64,000 nt of DNA from an uncultured Thermanaerothrix sp. (GTDB taxonomy: Bacteria; Chloroflexota; Anaerolineae; Anaerolineales; Anaerolineaceae). Positions 14,201 to 29,723 of the stretch are shown one piece after another (position 1 is the first letter of the stretch; the number at the start of each line of letters is the position of its first letter). The stretch lies in NCBI RefSeq assembly GCF_938028735.1, contig NZ_CALIMF010000014.1, positions 248,001 to 312,000 on the forward strand, given 5' to 3'. The notes under the pieces were generated by a model. That model was not told where the DNA came from, did not search any database, and worked only from the letters and a program-made list of their open reading frames with translations. The translations under genes were made by a program, and so were the position numbers.

Positions 14201-15982
14201 TTAGATCAGGACATCTACCACCAGTGCCAGAAAAACCAGCGCAAGGTACATGCTGGAAATGCGATACATCTGATAAGCCGGACGATTGCCAGAAAGGCGC
14301 AACACCCGCCAGGCTGCATAAATTAACCATGCTCCCAGGAGCAGCGCAGCAAATAGGAAAAGGCGACCAGTCAGATTAAAGAGTGGCATTAACAGTGTCA
14401 GAGCCACTAATTCTAAGGTATAAATGAAAATCTGCCGGCGCGTCGCCTTCTCCCCCTGCACAACCGGCAACATTGGAATACCGGCGCGAGCGTAGTCCTT
14501 CTGCCGCACTAGCGCCAAGGCCCAAAAATGCGGAGGCGTCCAGAGGAAAATGATAGCGAACAGAAATAGGGCTGGCACCTGGAGATCATTAGCTACTGCT
14601 GCCCAACCCACCAGAGGTGGAATCGCTCCAGCGCCTCCACCAATCACAATATTCTGGGTCGTGGCCGGTTTGAGCCACAAACTGTAAACCCCAACATAGT
14701 AGATCATCCCAGCCAGGGCAAGCAATGCACTGAGCAAGTTAACCTTACCCGCCAGGAGGAAAAAGGCCGTTAGGCATGCTGTCACCCCATAGGTCAGACC
14801 CTGAGCTGGCGTCAGAATACCTGAAGGAATGGGCCGCTTAGCCGTTCGTTGCATGCGGCGATCCACATCACGGTCAATGTATTGGTTAATGGCACTGGCA
14901 CCTCCAGCCGCCAAAGCCCCTCCCAGAAGTGTCCAAAACGTCAGACGCAAATCTGGCAATCCTCTGGCTGCCAGTACCATCCCGGTGTAGGTTGTGACCA
15001 GAAGAAGCGCCACAATCACGGGCTTATTCAATAAGAAGTAGGCTTTGAAGCGCACACGCCAGGAGATCTCATCCGAGACCCTCTCAACGGCTTGCGGTAA
15101 GCGTACCCACATCCCATAGACCAGTGCAACCATTGCCCCCCATAATGCCACAATGTTGAGGGCATGCAGGGCCACCATATCGCCAGGATACCCGCGGCTA
15201 ACCATCCATCCGCCCAGCCCAACCTGGCCCAAGAAAAGCATACCAACCGCCAGCGCAAGAGGCAAGATAACTGGATCTGCATTGTAGTCCCGCCCTACTC
15301 TTACGATTATGATAACCATCCCTATCAAGACCAAAAGGCTCGCCAAGCGATGAATAAGGGTGCTCCACCCCCACTCGCTCAGCACCCAACCGCCTGCACA
15401 AAGCGGCCACCCTCCACATACCCGCCCCCCAGGATCCAGCGTACTAGCAAAACCACTTGCCAGAAGGATAAAGGTTACCCCCATAACCCCCAGCCCTAGA
15501 AGAACCGACTTGTGGCTGGATCTAGCGCCTTTGCCCATAGGGCTTTGAAAGGCTGGTAGGGTAGAGAGGGTACTCACCCCCACAGCTGTCAGCGCCGCTA
15601 ATCCGAGCCCAAGATGCAGCAGAGCAAGGGATTCCCAAGCCAATACACGGGAGATGATCCCTAGTAGGCCCTGGAGAGCAAGCGCCACGATGCCACCAAT
15701 CAGTCCCCCGCGTTCAAGAGATGACAAGACTTGCCATCTGACCACCAGCTGCCAACCCCCGAAAACGATTACCAATCCAGTCGCAAGCCAGGAAAGGACC
15801 GGGTGCATTAAAGCCACCCATGGCAACCAAGTCACCGGCTGGCCGGGGACAAAAACACATTTCAGGTTTTGAACACATTCCTGCGCAACCCCTACAAAGC
15901 GGGCCACATACCCGCTGTAAACTGCTAGGATCAGGAAACCAAGGCTCACCCCATAGGCTCCACGCCAAATCTGTTCCTTCAT
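14201..15982 (-). CDS. Fused heme A synthase (CtaA/COX15-like) + protoheme IX farnesyltransferase (CtaB)
   Basis: N-terminal half multi-TM with COX15-like LIHRLASLLVLIG and DMVALHALNIVALWG; C-terminal half LLNKPVIVALLLVTTYTGM, SAINQYIDRDVDRRMQRTAKRPIPSG (CtaB). One ORF, no internal stop. Confidence 0.9.
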   Translation of the reverse strand: MKEQIWRGAYGVSLGFLILAVYSGYVARFVGVAQECVQNLKCVFVPGQPVTWLPWVALMHPVLSWLATGLVIVFGGWQLVVRWQVLSSLERGGLIGGIVALALQGLLGIISRVLAWESLALLHLGLGLAALTAVGVSTLSTLPAFQSPMGKGARSSHKSVLLGLGVMGVTFILLASGFASTLDPGGRVCGGWPLCAGGWVLSEWGWSTLIHRLASLLVLIGMVIIIVRVGRDYNADPVILPLALAVGMLFLGQVGLGGWMVSRGYPGDMVALHALNIVALWGAMVALVYGMWVRLPQAVERVSDEISWRVRFKAYFLLNKPVIVALLLVTTYTGMVLAARGLPDLRLTFWTLLGGALAAGGASAINQYIDRDVDRRMQRTAKRPIPSGILTPAQGLTYGVTACLTAFFLLAGKVNLLSALLALAGMIYYVGVYSLWLKPATTQNIVIGGGAGAIPPLVGWAAVANDLQVPALFLFAIIFLWTPPHFWALALVRQKDYARAGIPMLPVVQGEKATRRQIFIYTLELVALTLLMPLFNLTGRLFLFAALLLGAWLIYAAWRVLRLSGNRPAYQMYRISSMYLALVFLALVVDVLI

Positions 15983-18696: not shown

Positions 18697-20562
18697 TTAA
18701 TCATCTCCTACAGGCTGAGTTAGTGGCTCCACATACCGTGACCCCTTCAGCCCATAATCGTAGGGCTCCCCCACAACCCGGAAAGGCTGAGGATAGTTGT
18801 GCATGGGAGCTGGTGAGGGCAATAACTGCCACTCCGGCGACCGCGACTGCCAGACATTGCCCAGTGCCACTTCCCCGCGGCGCAAACTCACCACCAGATT
18901 GATGAAGAAAATCAACACCGAAAGCCCAATTAGAAAGCCAGCAATAGTGATAATCAGATGAGCGGTATCAAACCCCTGGGCAGGATCGTAATCGGCGATA
19001 CGCCGCCGCATCCCCAGCATCCCCACCCACATTTGACCAAAGGTCATCACCAGGAAAGAAGGGGTCATTAACCAAAAATGCAATCGTCCCAGGGTCTCAT
19101 TTAGCTTCCGACCGCTCACCTTAGGGAACCAATAATAAATAGCCGCAAAGAGAGGGAAGATATAACCCCCGAACATCGTATCATGGAAGTGACCAACAAC
19201 AAAATACGTATCGTGTAGATGGAGATCCGTTGCGACTACACCGTTAGGGGGGCCGCTCAGTCCACCCATGAGAAAAACCATAATGGCCCCCAGTACGAAA
19301 AGCATCGGCACGGGAGTACGGATGCGTCCTTGCCACAAAGTGGCTACCCAACTGAAAAATTTGATCCCGGTCGGCACGGCCACCAGTAGCGTGCTATACA
19401 TAAACGGCACGCGCAGATATTCTTCCATTCCTGAGGTAAACATGTGATGACCCCACACCAAGAAGCCCACCAGCGCGATGCCCAACGAAGACATGGCAAC
19501 CCAACGATAGCCGAAAAGAGGTTTACGCACAAAAACGGGCAGCAATTCACTGATCACACCCAATCCAGGTAACACAAAGATGTACACGGCCGGGTGAGAA
19601 TAGAACCAAAAGAGATGTTGAAAAAGAATCGGATTGCCGCCTTTGGTCGGATCAAAAAACCCCATGCCAAACAAACGCTCGAACATCACCATCTGAAAGG
19701 AAAGGCCAATCAATTGAGTAGCTGTCAGGGCAATTATGGACGCTGCCAGGGTGGCCCAGGCAAATATAGGCATTCGAAACAGTGACATTCCGGGTGCACG
19801 CAACCGAATGATGGTGGTGATCAGGTTAAGAGCTCCCAAAATGGAAGACCACCCGTTGAAGAACACCCCCACAAAGAACATCTGCATTCCTAGAGGCGCG
19901 CGGATACTTAGGGGCGGATAAGCCGTCCAACCTGTATCGAAGCCGCCCACAAAGAGAGCGCTCAACAACGTGATCGAAGCAGGAACAGCAATCCAGAATG
20001 AGAAGGCATTCAGGCGCGGAAAGGCCATGTCCCTGGCTCCAATCAGTAACGGAACTAGGAAATTGGCCATGGCGGCGAATCCCAGCAAGATTGAGATAAT
20101 TAGCACCATGCCGTGCATCCCGATCAGGGTGTTGAAAAAGTTCAACGAAAGAAACTGCATTCCCGAACGAGCCAGTTCGACACGAAAAATCAGCGCAAAA
20201 CTCCCCCCAATGGCCAACAGCAAGAGAGACAATATACCGTATTGAACCCCAATCACCTTGTGATCCAGGCTATAACCCAGATAGCGTTGCCAACCGGGTT
20301 GCTCTTCGATTTCCTCGATGTCAGGGGTCTCATGCCCCAGTGCCCAGGCAAACCAATCCCTGAAGGCGCCCAAGGTGATCATAAAACCTAAAACCCCACC
20401 AAACGCTCCGGCTACCCAGGCAGGTTCAGTCTTCCAGGGCAGCCCCATAGCAGCACGCACAGCGCTCAACAGCCCCATGCCTATCAGAAAGCCCAAAATC
20501 TGCCCAACAAGCCCACGCACCAAACCAATTGACCAGAAACGTTTCATTGCACCCTCCATCAA
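18697..20562 (-). CDS. ctaD: Cytochrome c oxidase subunit I
   Basis: LDHKVIGVQYGI, FWFYSHPAVYIFVLPG, VWGHHMFTSGM, HDTYFVVGHFHDTMFGG. Extra N-terminal hydrophobic segments. Confidence 0.95.
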   Translation of the reverse strand: MMEGAMKRFWSIGLVRGLVGQILGFLIGMGLLSAVRAAMGLPWKTEPAWVAGAFGGVLGFMITLGAFRDWFAWALGHETPDIEEIEEQPGWQRYLGYSLDHKVIGVQYGILSLLLLAIGGSFALIFRVELARSGMQFLSLNFFNTLIGMHGMVLIISILLGFAAMANFLVPLLIGARDMAFPRLNAFSFWIAVPASITLLSALFVGGFDTGWTAYPPLSIRAPLGMQMFFVGVFFNGWSSILGALNLITTIIRLRAPGMSLFRMPIFAWATLAASIIALTATQLIGLSFQMVMFERLFGMGFFDPTKGGNPILFQHLFWFYSHPAVYIFVLPGLGVISELLPVFVRKPLFGYRWVAMSSLGIALVGFLVWGHHMFTSGMEEYLRVPFMYSTLLVAVPTGIKFFSWVATLWQGRIRTPVPMLFVLGAIMVFLMGGLSGPPNGVVATDLHLHDTYFVVGHFHDTMFGGYIFPLFAAIYYWFPKVSGRKLNETLGRLHFWLMTPSFLVMTFGQMWVGMLGMRRRIADYDPAQGFDTAHLIITIAGFLIGLSVLIFFINLVVSLRRGEVALGNVWQSRSPEWQLLPSPAPMHNYPQPFRVVGEPYDYGLKGSRYVEPLTQPVGDD

Positions 20563-20572
20563 CGTGTTGAAA

Positions 20573-22000
20573 TCAGCGGAGTGTCTTGATGTACTCGATA
20601 ATGTCGTTGATTTGCTGGTCCGAGAGCAGCGCCTGATAATTCCCCGGCATCACATTGGACGGATAACCTTTGACCACCTGGGCATTTGGATTGAGAATAG
20701 CCACCCTTAAGTAATTCTCATCCACCGTAACCCGACTGCCATCCGCCAGTTCGTGATCTGTGCGACCATAGAGGCCTTTCCAAGTCGGCCCCACACCGGG
20801 GGAACCGTCCACTGAATGGCAGGAAAGGCATCCATTAGTCTGAGCCCACTTAGCCCCTCGCGTTGCGGGATCGGCTCCGATGGCTTGTAGTTGTTCACCT
20901 ACCCAGGCCTCGAAATCAGCCTGGGATACCACTACAACCGGACTCTCCATATAGGCATGCGAGGTGCCACACAACTCGGCACAGCGCACCTTAAATTGCC
21001 CCATCATGGTGGGGGTAACGCGTAATTCGCGTTCTAAATTTGCGCCAGGTAGTGCATCCTGCTTCACGCGAAACTCAGGTACCCAGAACGAGTGAATAAC
21101 GTCTAGGGACGTCAAGCGCAAATGAGCCTGACGATTGACTGGTAAATACAACGTATTAGACGTGATTCCATACTGCGGATACTCAAACCGCCAGAACCAC
21201 TGTCCTGCCACTACTTTAACCTCAATAGCCTGGGGGTCTATCCGCCGTGTTTCGGCCAAGGCAAGCGACCCCAGGTAAGAGAGATAGATCACAATCCCGA
21301 TTGGGATGATCGTCCACACAACTTCAAGCCCGGTAGAACCTTTGATATAGGCACCCTCCTCATCCTCATCTCTAGCGCGCTGCCGGAAGACAACCACGCT
21401 ATATCCCATGAAGGCCACGATTAAGGAAAAGAAGAAGGCAATCAGCATGAACTGCAAATTGAACAACCGATCAATCGGTTGCGCCTGAACACTCGCTTGA
21501 AGAGGGAGAACTTGAACGGTGTTCAAGAGATAGTTTGTTGCTAATGTCAGTATAACCACCAGAGATGCTACTATCGCCAAATGTTTCATAGACGATGTCC
21601 GCTCCTTTCCTGAGGGAGAAGGTTGAAAACCTGAGGGCTCAGAAAGCAAGAGCCAGTCTTCTGCTTGAGAAGGGGTTAGAACACGACGATCATAAACAAC
21701 CACTGAGCCACTTTCCTGGAGCGAGACCAACATCACCTGCATCGTCCGCTGACTACTAACAAAGAGATCCATAAAGCGCTTGCGGTCAAGAGAGCGGTCA
21801 TCATAGTCCAGGATGACAAGATCGGGCAACCAGGACTCCAGGAGCGTAAGCGTCTCTTCCATTGTTCCCACAACCCGAATTTCAAATTGACGCCCCCGCC
21901 ATTGTTGGTGAATCAATCGTTCCAGCCCGCGCCCAAAAAGCGGATTGGCCGAAGCAATTAATACCTTGCGCACTCCATCCATCTGCTGAAGACCCATCAT
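20573..22000 (-). CDS. ctaC: ORF joining an N-terminal pseudo-receiver-like domain to cytochrome c oxidase subunit II with C-terminal cytochrome c
   Basis: Residues 1-137 receiver-like (VRKVLIASANPLFGRGLERLI ... LPDLVILDYDD); then two TMs, CuA motif CAELCGTSHAYMESPV, haem motif CLSCHS. Alternative CoxII start ATG at 21589 with AAAGGAG 12 nt upstream. Confidence 0.9.
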   Translation of the reverse strand: MMGLQQMDGVRKVLIASANPLFGRGLERLIHQQWRGRQFEIRVVGTMEETLTLLESWLPDLVILDYDDRSLDRKRFMDLFVSSQRTMQVMLVSLQESGSVVVYDRRVLTPSQAEDWLLLSEPSGFQPSPSGKERTSSMKHLAIVASLVVILTLATNYLLNTVQVLPLQASVQAQPIDRLFNLQFMLIAFFFSLIVAFMGYSVVVFRQRARDEDEEGAYIKGSTGLEVVWTIIPIGIVIYLSYLGSLALAETRRIDPQAIEVKVVAGQWFWRFEYPQYGITSNTLYLPVNRQAHLRLTSLDVIHSFWVPEFRVKQDALPGANLERELRVTPTMMGQFKVRCAELCGTSHAYMESPVVVVSQADFEAWVGEQLQAIGADPATRGAKWAQTNGCLSCHSVDGSPGVGPTWKGLYGRTDHELADGSRVTVDENYLRVAILNPNAQVVKGYPSNVMPGNYQALLSDQQINDIIEYIKTLR

Positions 22001-22105: not shown

Positions 22106-22130
22106 TAAAAATCCCCCCTAAAAGGGGGAT
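22106..22130 (-). terminator. Rho-independent terminator after the two-component system
   Basis: Minus strand ATCCCCCTTTTAGGGGGGATTTTT, downstream of the response regulator. Confidence 0.75.
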
Positions 22131-22165: not shown

Positions 22166-22822
22166 CTAGGGCTCATGACGGCGAATCAACCCCAGAGCAA
22201 TCGCCTTGCTCACTGCTTCGGTGCGATTAGAGGCTTCCAACTTCTCCAGAATATGACGCACATGAGTTTTGACCGTATTATCAGAGATATACAATTTAGC
22301 AGCAATCTGTCCTGTTGTCTTCCCCTCTGCCAAGCACTCAAGCACTTCCAATTCCCGGTCGCTGAGAATTTGCCGATTGGCCATCTCGGATTGGTACGCC
22401 AAAGCACGTAAGACTGGTGCCGTGACCTCAGGCGAAAGAGCCCCCTCACCTTGGTAAACACGTAAAATGGCCTTACGTAGTTCCTCAGGCTCCACATTCT
22501 TGAGAAGGTAGCCGTCTGCGCCGCTTCGGATGGCTTGCATGAGATCTGCCTCCTGTTGTGAAACCGTCAGCATCAGCACCTTGGGGGAAGAAGCCCACTT
22601 GCGCAATGCTTCTAAGGTACGCAATCCATCCAAGGAAGGCATATTAATATCCAAAAGCACCACATCGGGCCCCGTGCGACGCACTACCTCAAGAGCTTCG
22701 TGACCATTGGCGGCTTCACCCACCACCTGTATTTCCGGCATGCCTCGGAGCAATTCGATCAATCCGCGCCGAAAGAGCGCATGATCATCCACAACCACGA
22801 CCCGTATCACACGCATCCTCAT
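22166..22822 (-). CDS. NarL/FixJ-type response regulator (receiver + LuxR HTH)
   Basis: RVVVVDDHALFRRGLIELL, DVVLLDINMPSLDG, LSDRELEVLECLAEGKTTGQIAAKLYISDNTVKTHV. Confidence 0.95.
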   Translation of the reverse strand: MRMRVIRVVVVDDHALFRRGLIELLRGMPEIQVVGEAANGHEALEVVRRTGPDVVLLDINMPSLDGLRTLEALRKWASSPKVLMLTVSQQEADLMQAIRSGADGYLLKNVEPEELRKAILRVYQGEGALSPEVTAPVLRALAYQSEMANRQILSDRELEVLECLAEGKTTGQIAAKLYISDNTVKTHVRHILEKLEASNRTEAVSKAIALGLIRRHEP

Positions 22823-24639
22823 ACCAGCGACTCCTCCACTCGAAATGGTACCTGTAAACGGATAATCGTTCCTTGATAGGGCTGGCTAATAACCTGGAAG
22901 TCAGCTCCGATCAACTCAGCACGCTCGCGCATCCCTCGCAATCCGTGTTGCGAGAATTGCGGCACATCCTGCGGTGTGAAGCCAACCCCATTATCGCCAA
23001 TTTCTAAAACCCAATCCCGATCCCAAGAACTTAATGAAATCCATGCCTTAGAAGCACGGGCATGCTTGCGGATATTATTCAATGCCTCTTGGATAATGCG
23101 CAGAAGCTGCGCCTGTACTTCTAAGGGAAGATCAGGGGGCTTCTCGGGTAAAATACATTCGATCTGTAAGTTCATGCCTTCCATCGCACTGGCCGCCACC
23201 CGACGGATCCAGGTATTCATATCTTCTTGCGGGCTAAAGCGCAGGTTATCCATCACCTGCCGGGTTTCCAGATAGATCTCGGCCAACGCCTGATAATGGC
23301 GATGCAGGAGGGTTTCTAATCGCGCATGGTCTTCCTGATTGAGCGCATTAATCATCTGCGCAGTGTTCAATTTCAGGTAGGCCAACGTCTGTGCTAGACC
23401 ATCGTGAATTTCACGCGCCAGCCGCATTCGCTCTTGTATGACTGCCCGATACGCCAGATCAAAATGCATTTGTTCGGTTTCAATGACGTAAACCAGGGCA
23501 TCCAACAGTAAACTAGAGGCTGCGCTGACAGACTCACCCCCCCCACTTGAATTGAACCCATAAAGCAACAAAACGCCTAGGTCTTTGCCTTGAGAGGAAA
23601 CAAGGCGAATTGCCCAACCTTGCACTCCGTGGGGTTCCAGAGGAACACGTTGGGGATGATCAGGTCGAGTCTGCACAGCCTTGAGGACCAAGTTGCACAC
23701 CTCTCGGACGCGCTCAGGCTCAGTGACTGGAAACTGACCCACCGTCAGGAAAGTGGGCAACCTCATAGCCTCGTTTTGTAGCAAGTATAATGCCGCTCCT
23801 TTGCACGCTGAGACTTGCATCCAGCGCCATACTATGGGCCTAAGTGTGCTGTCTAGGTCGGGGTGCCTTACACGATTTCCTAGAATCTGGGAGTAAATAG
23901 CGGCCTCTCGCGCCTTTAGACGATGCAGTTCTAGTCCCATTAGCACAGCGGAAAAGAAATTCTCCAGTGCGCGCCGCAGATCATCTGCAAGGACGAAGTT
24001 GGGCCGTGTTGAAAAGAGGTTGATAACAGCAACCGTACGACCATGTTGTTTCAACGGAACACACTCCACTATTTTCGCCCTTGGCATTTCACTCTGGAAG
24101 AGGGTACACCCCTGGTCCACGGCCGCCCGATAGACCTGGCATTGCTTACACGAAAGGCGAACCTGTGGCTGAGCCAGGCTCTTTTCCCACTCCTGGTTAT
24201 CTACTTCTCCTTCTTCACCAACCGCATAGACTCGCAAAGGCTGGTTCCATTCGTCCAAAAAGATAAAAGTGGCTCCGCTGGCTCCACAAACCGCGGCGGC
24301 CTTTTCCAAAGCTATGCGAACCAGATATTCTTGATTATCCGCACCAAGAAGGTCAGGCAAAACCTGCCAAAGGGCACCTGCGGGGCTTCCCTCTGGGGTT
24401 TGTCCCTCGTTATCCGGTATAGACTTTGCCCGCCCCTTTTTTCTTTCTCGATCCCGCTTTCTCCATCCTCCCCACCAAAACAAACTGGTTCCACCCACCA
24501 ACCAGACCATAGCTATCCAGTCGCCTTCGCTAAATTTAGCCAGCCCATAGCCGAGAAGGAATACGCCTACCAACACAACACCAACTTGGAATTTCTCACG
24601 TAACCAGATAAATATTGTCTTTGTTGCTAGATTTTCCAT
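22819..24639 (-). CDS. NarX-type sensor histidine kinase with GAF-like domains
   Basis: N-terminal TMs; GAF-like region with a cysteine cluster; RMRLAREIHDGLAQTLAYLKLNTAQM (HisKA_3) and HATPase LLRIIQEALNNIRKHA. Confidence 0.9.
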   Translation of the reverse strand: MENLATKTIFIWLREKFQVGVVLVGVFLLGYGLAKFSEGDWIAMVWLVGGTSLFWWGGWRKRDRERKKGRAKSIPDNEGQTPEGSPAGALWQVLPDLLGADNQEYLVRIALEKAAAVCGASGATFIFLDEWNQPLRVYAVGEEGEVDNQEWEKSLAQPQVRLSCKQCQVYRAAVDQGCTLFQSEMPRAKIVECVPLKQHGRTVAVINLFSTRPNFVLADDLRRALENFFSAVLMGLELHRLKAREAAIYSQILGNRVRHPDLDSTLRPIVWRWMQVSACKGAALYLLQNEAMRLPTFLTVGQFPVTEPERVREVCNLVLKAVQTRPDHPQRVPLEPHGVQGWAIRLVSSQGKDLGVLLLYGFNSSGGGESVSAASSLLLDALVYVIETEQMHFDLAYRAVIQERMRLAREIHDGLAQTLAYLKLNTAQMINALNQEDHARLETLLHRHYQALAEIYLETRQVMDNLRFSPQEDMNTWIRRVAASAMEGMNLQIECILPEKPPDLPLEVQAQLLRIIQEALNNIRKHARASKAWISLSSWDRDWVLEIGDNGVGFTPQDVPQFSQHGLRGMRERAELIGADFQVISQPYQGTIIRLQVPFRVEESLV

Positions 24640-26483: not shown

Positions 26484-28454
26484 TCAGCATTCCTGAACAA
26501 TGGTTCCCATTTGTCCAATGTCATAACCGGGCAATTGGCCCACCGCTTGGCGAAAACGCGGTTCATGCATTAATTCAAATATGGGTTTGATGCGCTCATC
26601 CTCCACGTACTTGCAAGGGATGACCAAGTCATAGGCTTCGTGAAAGAGCGGGATAAAATCCAGATCCAGTGCCTTGGCTGCGGCAGTCACTCCCAGGCCG
26701 CAATCGGCCCGCCCCGAGGCCACCGCTGCGGCTACAGACAAGTGCGTATATTCCTCCTGTTGGTAGCCCCGAATGGTTTCGGGATTGAGCCCCTTGAGAC
26801 TAAGGTGATAATCCAGCAGAACACGAGTACCCGCTCCGCGCTGGCGATTGACAAACATCACATCTGGACGCACCAAGTCTTCTAGCCCTCTAATGCCTTT
26901 GGGGTTTCCGGGACGTACAATTAAACCCTGTTCACGTTCCACCCACCGCACGATCCTGACATTTTCATTGGGTAGATACTGCCTTACATAACGCAGGTTA
27001 TAGATCCCTGTTTCCGGATCTAACAGATGCGATCCCGCCAGATGAGCCTCACCTCGACGTAAAGCAATCAGACCCCCCAGGCTTCCCACATTCGCCGACA
27101 CTAGGCGCAGACCTCGCTCAGCCAGAAACTGAGCCAGCAGATCTAACGACATATCGTGTGATCCGATTGCAAAGACGGTGCGGCTCAACACCCGGCTGGA
27201 GGTGTACAGCCGTACACGCACTTTCTGCCCTGCCTCTATTCCCTGGATACCCGAGGGAATTACCAAGATACCATCCGCACGAACAAGTGAGGTGATCACT
27301 CCCGCACCACGTGCTAAAGGTGCTACTACTATCCGCCCGCCCACCTCACCAATGACGACACGCACATAATCTTCATCCCCCGCGGGAGAGGTGATCTTAC
27401 GGGTGAGAACCGCTTCAATTTCCTCGGGTTCAGAAGCAGGTCGTCCAGTCCAAAGGGCCAATAAGGGCTCAACAAAGATCTCACCAGTGAGCGCCGCCGA
27501 TACCGGATAACCCGGAACCCCTAGAATGGGTACTTTGGCTCCCACTGCTCCACCAGAACGTCCAACCATGCCAAAGACAACCGGGTGTCCAGGCCGAACA
27601 GCCACGCCATGGAAGATTAGATCTCCCAGGCGTTCGACCACACGGGCAGAAAAATCCTCTGACCCTGCTGAGGAGCCTGCGTTCAGTAGAATCAAATCAC
27701 TTTCCTGCGCAGCCTCACGAACGCGCTCTAAAATCGCGTCCTCATCATCAGGGGTGATCGGGTAACGAACTGGTTCACCTCCCCAAGATGCCACCTGCGC
27801 AGCCAGAACCAGTGAATTGAACTCAATGATGTCCCCAGGCTTGACCGGCGTCCCAATTGGCACCAGTTCATCCCCTGTTGGAATAATCGCAACACGAGGC
27901 TTGCGCGTTACCACTACGTGAGTGTACCCACACGCCGCAATGGCTCCTAAATCGACCGGGCGCAGAACATGTCCCGCTGGGAGAACCAGTTGAGTTGCCA
28001 CAATGTCTTCACCCATTGGGCGAACATGGCTCCAAGGAGGCAAAGCCGCTCGTAGCCGGATCATAGAAGGGTGTCGCGGGTTCTCAGCTGGCCGCCCTTC
28101 TTGATCCAGTGCCTCCACATTTTCAATGGGCACCACTGCATTGGCCCATTCGGGCAATACATCGCCTGTATCCACATAAACCGCATGCGAGCCCACTGGC
28201 AAGGTCACCGGCGCTGTTGGCATAGCCCCATCTGTGTCCTCCGCTCGAATAGCAAACCCATCCATGGCTGCAGAGTGGTAATGAGGCGAGGAAAGCCGCG
28301 CCCAAACCGGTTCAGCAGTTACCCGTCCTACCAGGTCTTCGCTTAGGGGTAATGTTTCTACTCCCAGTATCCGCCATAAATTCGCTCCTTGAAGGGCGGC
28401 ACGAATACGCTGTTGTGCTTCTGGTAGAGGGATATCATGAAGGTACACTGACAT
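26484..28454 (-). CDS. MoeA-type molybdopterin molybdotransferase fused to a periplasmic-binding-protein-like domain
   Basis: MoeA motifs (SAAMDGFAIRAEDT, PTGDELVPIG, LNAGSSAGSEDF, GVPGYPVSA) followed by a substrate-binding-like domain (VRPDVMFVNRQRGAGTRVLLDYHL, ADCGLGVTAAAKALDLDFIPLFHEAYDLVI). Confidence 0.9.
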   Translation of the reverse strand: MSVYLHDIPLPEAQQRIRAALQGANLWRILGVETLPLSEDLVGRVTAEPVWARLSSPHYHSAAMDGFAIRAEDTDGAMPTAPVTLPVGSHAVYVDTGDVLPEWANAVVPIENVEALDQEGRPAENPRHPSMIRLRAALPPWSHVRPMGEDIVATQLVLPAGHVLRPVDLGAIAACGYTHVVVTRKPRVAIIPTGDELVPIGTPVKPGDIIEFNSLVLAAQVASWGGEPVRYPITPDDEDAILERVREAAQESDLILLNAGSSAGSEDFSARVVERLGDLIFHGVAVRPGHPVVFGMVGRSGGAVGAKVPILGVPGYPVSAALTGEIFVEPLLALWTGRPASEPEEIEAVLTRKITSPAGDEDYVRVVIGEVGGRIVVAPLARGAGVITSLVRADGILVIPSGIQGIEAGQKVRVRLYTSSRVLSRTVFAIGSHDMSLDLLAQFLAERGLRLVSANVGSLGGLIALRRGEAHLAGSHLLDPETGIYNLRYVRQYLPNENVRIVRWVEREQGLIVRPGNPKGIRGLEDLVRPDVMFVNRQRGAGTRVLLDYHLSLKGLNPETIRGYQQEEYTHLSVAAAVASGRADCGLGVTAAAKALDLDFIPLFHEAYDLVIPCKYVEDERIKPIFELMHEPRFRQAVGQLPGYDIGQMGTIVQEC

Positions 28455-28487: not shown

Positions 28488-29723
28488 TTACAAAAGCCAC
28501 ACCTCAACCTCAGCACCCGATGCCAGACCTGTTGCATCGGCGGGAATGCGCAGTAGCCCATCTGCGCGCACCAGCGAAAAGATTAAGTTGCTCTTATAGA
28601 AAATGGGTTCTGCCAGCAGCCCCTCCGCGCTCTCAATCAATCGTACGGGAACGTAATCCTCTCGTCCAGCCTGAGAGGGCAAATTGAGGGTGAGACGGGC
28701 CGGTAAGCGTGCGCGTGGACGTTTAACTCTAAGCCCTAGCAAGCGCCCTAAGACTGGCGGTAAGAAAAATTGAGCCACAACCAGCGCGCTTACTGGGTTG
28801 CCAGAGAGACCCAAAAGAGGTTTTCCATTACAAACCGCCAGAATGGTGGGCTTTCCTGGCCGGATGTTGATCCCGTGAACTAGCACACCGGGAAGGCCCA
28901 TCTCATCAATTATCCGCGCAGTCAAATCCCGTGTACTTATGGAAGAGCCCGCAGATATAATGACCAGATCATTTTCATCCAAAGCACGCCTAAGTACTTC
29001 ACGCAATACCTCCTCACGATCTGGCACAATACCATAGCGTTGTGGAAGCCCCCCTTCCAACTCTACCAACGCACTTAGCGAGTAACTATTAATATCTCGA
29101 ACTTGGGCAGGGCGCAGGGGTTGCTCGGGGGGGATAACCTCATCCCCGCTAGACAGTATTCCCACACGCGGTTTTTTGGCTACGCGCAATTTTGTGATTC
29201 CTAGCCCCATCAGCCCTCCAATTTCAGGGGGGCGTAAGCGAACCCCTGCCGGAATAACTTCCTCCCCTACCTGCACGTCCTCTCCAATTTTGAGCACATT
29301 TTCACCCACCCCCACCGAGCGCAGGACCTCGATCTCACCTGGCATCGTCATCTGAGTGTGTTCCAACATCACAACCGCATCTGCCCCTTCTGGTAGCATC
29401 CCCCCGGTGTAAATCAAAGCCGCCTGTCCGGGTTGTAGGGCAAACTCAGGAGCCTGGCCCATTTCAACCTCACCTACCACCGCCAAATAGGCTGGCAGGC
29501 TGTCGCTTGCCCCGAAGGTATCAGCAGCCCGCACCGCATATCCATCCACCGTGCTACGGGGGAAAAATGGCATGGGTTCTGGCGCTCGAATGGGCTCCAT
29601 GGTAACCCGTCCCAGGGCTTCCAGAGTCAAGAGTTCCTCCGTCTCGGGCTCAAGGTCGGGGAGAGCATTCAACCAACGCTCCAGAGCTGCTTGAGGGGAT
29701 AGTAATGCTAGAAATTCACCCAT
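28488..29723 (-). CDS. moeA: Molybdopterin molybdotransferase
   Basis: STVDGYAVRAADT, ILSSGDEVIPP, ISAGSSISTRDLTARII, GLSGNPVSALV. Confidence 0.92.
   Translation of the reverse strand: MGEFLALLSPQAALERWLNALPDLEPETEELLTLEALGRVTMEPIRAPEPMPFFPRSTVDGYAVRAADTFGASDSLPAYLAVVGEVEMGQAPEFALQPGQAALIYTGGMLPEGADAVVMLEHTQMTMPGEIEVLRSVGVGENVLKIGEDVQVGEEVIPAGVRLRPPEIGGLMGLGITKLRVAKKPRVGILSSGDEVIPPEQPLRPAQVRDINSYSLSALVELEGGLPQRYGIVPDREEVLREVLRRALDENDLVIISAGSSISTRDLTARIIDEMGLPGVLVHGINIRPGKPTILAVCNGKPLLGLSGNPVSALVVAQFFLPPVLGRLLGLRVKRPRARLPARLTLNLPSQAGREDYVPVRLIESAEGLLAEPIFYKSNLIFSLVRADGLLRIPADATGLASGAEVEVWLL

Follow-up and report, generated by a model that had tools for sequence, protein, structure and literature searches.

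The minus-strand open reading frame at positions 20573–22000 of the window (the whole 64,000 nt stretch analyzed) runs stop-free through 475 residues, from a receiver-like N-terminal domain, here termed pRec for pseudo-receiver, into a caa3-type cytochrome c oxidase subunit II (CoxII) that bears a CuA center and a cytochrome c domain. The reading judged here to be the probable one is that a single frame specifies two proteins and that pRec is an accessory domain of the caa3 oxidase. A start at position 22000 would give a 475 amino acid pRec-CoxII fusion, and a start at the internal ATG at 21589, which has its own AGGAG-type site, would give an ordinary CoxII of 338 aa. The signal-anchor helix of CoxII would place pRec on the cytoplasmic face, and there pRec would be dedicated to the oxidase, acting by contact and probably aiding its assembly or adjusting its activity. 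The open reading frame, its conservation, the selection on it, the internal start signal, the gene order and the association with the oxidase are sequence-based; from these we infer the production of two proteins, their topology, an interaction of pRec with the oxidase, and the role of pRec.

The frame consists of 475 codons and a stop codon (22000–20573, minus strand), and the first-pass annotation, which described a stop-free frame from a receiver-like domain into CoxII, is borne out on this point. The predicted long product occupies the entire frame, and the fused state is found in 39 distinct sequences. Among the genomes compared the closest relative is Thermanaerothrix daxensis (Anaerolineales), with 91% identity across the fusion. 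The T. daxensis genome encodes an A-family oxygen reductase, and a single membrane has been inferred for this organism (PMC4653793).

Residues 138–475 constitute a caa3-type CoxII with CuA and a C-terminal cytochrome c (predicted short product, 338 aa, 20573–21589, minus strand). The Pfam matches are COX2 (5.5e-16), Cytochrom_C (PF00034, 5.9e-9) and COX2_TM (3.7e-8), and the score against the NCBIfam CoxB model TIGR02866 is 168.1 bits, above the cut-off of 147.7; by these scores the presence of CuA and cytochrome c, as first annotated, is certain. The His, Cys, Glu, Cys, His and Met ligands of the CuA center are all present (H303, C340, E342, C344, H348 and M351; 20948–21094, minus strand) and are invariant in the fused-family alignment. 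In the same alignment the CxxCH of the cytochrome c (C391-C394-H395) is invariant and the axial M451 is found in at least 90% of sequences. The best structural match of the CoxII part is Thermus thermophilus caa3 subunit II (2yev chain B), with 34% identity. The likeness to caa3 CoxII (TIGR02866 and 2yev chain B) extends to two transmembrane helices, the CuA ligands and the C-terminal cytochrome c. To our knowledge, no caa3 subunit II described so far has a receiver-like domain at its N-terminus or a second start within the gene. Two fused members, L106 and L145, show a shortened or shifted CoxII C-terminus; these are single genomes, and the changes are probably assembly errors or true frameshifts.

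pRec is located at residues 11–119 (21644–21970, minus strand), and its assignment draws on an AlphaFold model, a 77-row alignment, matches to NarL and dN/dS ratios. The window copy scores below threshold against PF00072 (E = 0.037; 14.6 bits, gathering cut-off 30.2). PF00072 is matched at E ≤ 0.01 by 60 of the 77 pRec members, the window copy being outside that limit. The pRec family profile matches NarL structures at E-values of about 1e-6 and aligns with the neighboring response regulator at E = 2.9e-9. Receiver resemblance is therefore weak in the window copy alone, but the family, through its profile matches, establishes it, and by the same sequence evidence pRec is homologous to NarL-type receivers.

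The AlphaFold model of pRec, built on the 77-row alignment, has a mean pLDDT of 81.1, and the folded part mostly lies between 80 and 96 per ten-residue block. The order of elements is beta1-alpha1-beta2-alpha2-beta3-alpha3-beta4-beta5-alpha5, with alpha4 missing between beta4 and beta5, and the model thus departs from the (beta-alpha)5 receiver topology in having the five strands without alpha4. A structural model of the N-terminal part had been proposed as a check, and it returns a receiver-like fold, but one from which this helix is absent. Foldseek searches with the model return receivers at TM values of about 0.5, including the mycobacterial complex I chain 8e9i_O (E = 0.01), which we take to be Rv3143/MSMEG_2064.

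The residues of the receiver active site are only partly retained. The phospho-acceptor aspartate, D65, is invariant in 77 of 77 pRec members and is aligned with the Asp of the neighboring response regulator, and a Ser is retained at the receiver T position. The acidic pair of receivers is replaced by S17/A18, and the position of the receiver Lys at the end of beta5 reads YDRR. By the definition given in PMC12632262, at least one of five active-site residues missing, the sequence of pRec is that of a pseudo-receiver; in the model it also lacks alpha4, a helix that is normally part of the output surface. The domain had been called a pseudo-receiver from the loss of the acidic pair, which is correct but incomplete, as alpha4 and the Lys are also gone and D65 remains. 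Since the acidic pair, the Lys and alpha4 are absent, pRec probably works through contact with other proteins instead of through conventional phosphorylation of Asp.

The pRec profile was run against 400 genomes from the order and against a GTDB contig set, additional loci were fetched, and removal of identical copies left 77 distinct pRec loci. Thirty-nine of these continue in frame into CoxII, 33 have a stop in the linker, and five have no CoxII anchor directly downstream. The fusion is present in the type strains T. daxensis GNS-1, Bellilinea caldifistulae GOMI-1, Longilinea arvoryzae KOME-1 and Anaerolinea thermolimosa IMO-1. In the 33 split loci pRec forms its own gene immediately before CoxII; the CoxII frame relative to pRec takes all three values (12, 12 and 9 loci), and CoxII mostly lies 1–40 nt from the pRec stop, with one 4-nt overlap. 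A stop or frameshift separating the two parts in relatives had been named as evidence against a true fusion. Such relatives exist (the 33 above), however the in-frame fusion is also widely conserved. From the split state it follows that not all members are fused and that CoxII normally begins at the internal ATG.

The CoxII tree shows strong clustering of the fused and split states and requires at least five changes, of which at least two are forced by well-supported branches (the root is uncertain). Two large Anaerolineales clades appear to keep the open linker and the internal start by selection, and in other clades pRec is split. Outside the order pRec is rare: one fused copy (L152, in genome G553) and a single weak match (G607) came from 298 genomes sampled across the class, none came from 301 genomes sampled across the phylum, and plasmids gave no match. 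L152, from another order of the same class, is a fused pRec-CoxII with a good internal Shine-Dalgarno sequence, and its CoxII is nearest to that of the split locus L088 (66%); it may represent a transfer or a mis-binned contig.

The dN/dS ratio of pRec is 0.008–0.12 in close fused pairs, which is comparable to that of CoxII. Such protein-level selection indicates that pRec is translated as a protein, and with no stop before CoxII in 39 members, a ribosome translating pRec must run on into CoxII. The linker (residues 120–137; 21590–21643, minus strand) is open in frame and holds the internal ribosome binding site. Across the linkers compared, sequence and length (13–47 codons) are highly variable, yet the frame stays open. 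The linker pN/pS, computed without the six codons that hold the ribosome site, is 0.62 in the fused frame (bootstrap 95% 0.47–0.79) and 0.95 and 0.86 in the two wrong frames, and the linker thus appears to be selected in the fused frame. The probability of an open frame by chance, as a product over 21–30 diverged linker clusters, is 6e-8 to 2e-10, a figure based on composition alone that ignores shared ancestry. From these probabilities and the frame-specific pN/pS, a chance open frame is unlikely.

The internal ATG is at 21589–21587 and the Shine-Dalgarno-like AAAGGAG is at 21608–21602 (minus strand), 12 nt upstream, in agreement with the first-pass annotation. AGGAG or GGAGG precedes the CoxII ATG in 38 of 39 fused members compared with 2 of 330 other in-frame ATGs, and so the conserved internal start with a Shine-Dalgarno sequence that characterizes an N-terminal proteoform pair is found here. 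The Arg codon at position −4 is AGG in 34 of 37 cases, although 5.7% of the Arg codons in the rest of these genes are AGG; this excess indicates that the nucleotides are kept and not the amino acid. Anti-Shine-Dalgarno pairing is stronger at the CoxII site than at the pRec site in 36 of 39 members. In L026, L038, L059 and L062 the usual MKH start is absent and an ATG with a Shine-Dalgarno sequence is found four codons upstream instead. The spacing is 12 nt in Thermanaerothrix and 7 nt in most relatives; the 12-nt spacing is below ideal and may weaken the internal start in the genus of the window. In split relatives CoxII begins at the equivalent of the internal ATG, and on this comparison the ATG at 21589 is taken as the standard CoxII start. 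A true fusion and an in-frame nested gene had been offered as alternatives. The data point to both: a conserved in-frame fusion with a selected linker, together with a conserved internal start. It is conceivable, although this is a tentative proposal, that the two competing starts set the stoichiometry of pRec, such that a sub-population of the oxidase would be regulated or assembled via a signalling-type domain.

The gene order Rrf2, cytochrome c, histidine kinase, response regulator, pRec, CoxII, CoxI, CoxIII and SCO is widely kept. In the window the usual upstream neighbor of pRec, identified by Pfam and synteny, is a NarL/LuxR-type response regulator with an intact receiver (22166–22822, minus strand), and its gene has a 4-nt overlap with that of a GAF-HisKA_3 histidine kinase (22819–24639, minus strand), likewise assigned by Pfam and synteny. 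Downstream, the open reading frame of cytochrome c oxidase subunit I begins 10 nt past CoxII (18697–20562, minus strand), as in the conserved gene order. This CoxII is found in 70 of 72 genomes with pRec and in 120 of 328 genomes without it (Fisher 1e-23). Of 190 genomes that carry this CoxII, about 120 lack pRec, which shows that a caa3 oxidase can do without it. The occurrence of pRec fused to CoxII in some lineages and adjacent to it in others argues for a functional partnership. Several pRec copies that do not precede CoxII adjoin genes for cytochrome c (L015, in genome G010), SURF1 (L068) or heme A synthase (L108), and by the placements in L015, L068 and L108 pRec keeps to oxidase-related surroundings.

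Some further features of the region may be mentioned. A terminator-like hairpin and T tract at 22113–22129 (minus strand), just past the response regulator gene, suggests that pRec-CoxII may start its own transcript, although such matches occur at chance frequency here. A candidate promoter inside pRec (21829–21800) is a consensus match only. Beside the oxidase cluster, 14201–15982 (minus strand) is a single 593 aa open reading frame that by inspection resembles heme A synthase plus protoheme IX farnesyltransferase (CtaA-CtaB). By inspection, two adjacent MoeA-like molybdopterin genes are at 26484–28454 and 28488–29723 (minus strand), the first with an extra C-terminal part that is substrate-binding-like.

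The fusion has three hydrophobic segments. The topology first proposed, with a cytoplasmic N-terminus, a signal-anchor, two transmembrane segments and the CuA domain outside, is plausible by analogy with known CoxII topology as regards a cytoplasmic pRec and an external CuA, but, given a conserved signal-peptidase-like motif, pRec may be released from mature CoxII. The N-terminal hydrophobic segment of CoxII (residues 138–173; 21482–21589, minus strand) may be a signal peptide or a signal anchor; the full-length model, whose confidence is low around the linker, shows a helix at residues 137–161. An LLPxxASxQA-like motif at residues 169–173 is present in 68 of 72 sequences, including split members, with A, G or S at −1 in 68 of 68 and a small or aliphatic residue at −3 in 67. 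A cut by signal peptidase I after A173 is possible. Both starts would then yield the same mature CoxII, and pRec would remain in the cytoplasm as a domain of its own, held by a membrane helix; the fusion would serve to bring pRec to the membrane in coordination with CoxII. This course of events, to which appreciable but not leading weight is given, is favored by the near-perfect fit at −3 and −1 and by the presence of the motif in split members. Long signal peptides are usual in single-membrane bacteria. T. daxensis, inferred to be one-membraned (PMC4653793), is in keeping with such processing; the hydrophobic stretch, however, is long enough for a stable anchor.

A role in two-component signalling is unlikely, although several observations agree with it. 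pRec could bind the neighboring kinase or response regulator and make their activity depend on how much CoxII is present or on how it is assembled: both genes are directly upstream in most loci, pRec is related to NarL-type receivers like that response regulator, and a review describes models in which pseudo-receivers act on partner systems (PMC12632262). However, four fused loci (L083, L086, L087 and L091) have no histidine kinase or response regulator match in 5 kb of upstream sequence, and the fusion is kept there. That the genes are simply nested, CoxII always starting at 21589 and the in-frame opening being incidental, would agree with an internal start conserved across all lineages, fused and split; it is nevertheless improbable, given strong protein-level selection on pRec, which in 39 members does not end in a stop before CoxII, and a linker selected in the fused frame. 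The opposite case, an obligate fusion with the internal start unused, is slightly less probable still. The unbroken frame and the 12-nt spacing in Thermanaerothrix speak for it, but the conserved AGGAG/GGAGG, the preference for AGG at codon −4 and the replacement of both ATG and Shine-Dalgarno sequence upstream in the four members lacking the MKH start speak against it. That the frame is an error of annotation or assembly, or a gene in decay, which had one point in its favor in the low Pfam score of the window copy, is ruled out by 39 distinct sequences, four type strains and dN/dS ratios far below 1.

The preferred reading, two proteins from one frame with pRec as an accessory domain of the oxidase, has a partial precedent in the orphan response regulator Rv3143/MSMEG_2064, which is reported to bind NuoD and to change complex I activity by contact (PMC9274095) and has been named a supernumerary complex I subunit (PMC11522691). 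The two share a receiver fold without a DNA-binding domain, a tie to a respiratory complex, a contact action that is reported for Rv3143/MSMEG_2064 and probable for pRec, and a gene beside the operon of the complex. Rv3143/MSMEG_2064 is however a separate, unfused complex I protein, and its likeness to pRec is at the fold level only (Foldseek E = 0.01). By analogy, pRec would most likely act on the oxidase by contact as this protein does on complex I; the tie between pRec and the oxidase is drawn here from fusion, synteny and co-occurrence.

Other known systems match in part. pRec shares receiver homology and the loss of active-site residues with bacterial pseudo-receivers (PMC12632262), but it differs in the further loss of alpha4, in its retained phospho-Asp and in its fusion to an integral subunit of a respiratory enzyme. 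NarL-family response regulators are its closest sequence relatives; unlike pRec, they contain alpha4, the full set of active-site residues and a DNA-binding domain. Bacterial N-terminal proteoform pairs such as those of InfB and CheA (PMC11005335) likewise arise from one frame as two products via internal initiation, whereas the extension in pRec-CoxII amounts to an entire domain, encoded on its own in relatives. A literature search on receiver domains together with oxidase subunit II, with most subscription journals outside the search, found nothing relevant. CoxII itself is known; here it is combined in a conserved way with a derived pseudo-receiver and a predicted dual start.

The finding would tie a fold of signalling origin directly to a core component of the aerobic respiratory machinery, in bacteria that are usually called anaerobic fermenters. 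The dual start would be a clear instance in which the choice of start codon adds or omits an entire domain. Nature provides both fused and split relatives, some of them cultured type strains, and the question is therefore open to direct tests. Together with Rv3143/MSMEG_2064, pRec would suggest repeated recruitment of receiver-like proteins as accessory parts of respiratory complexes.
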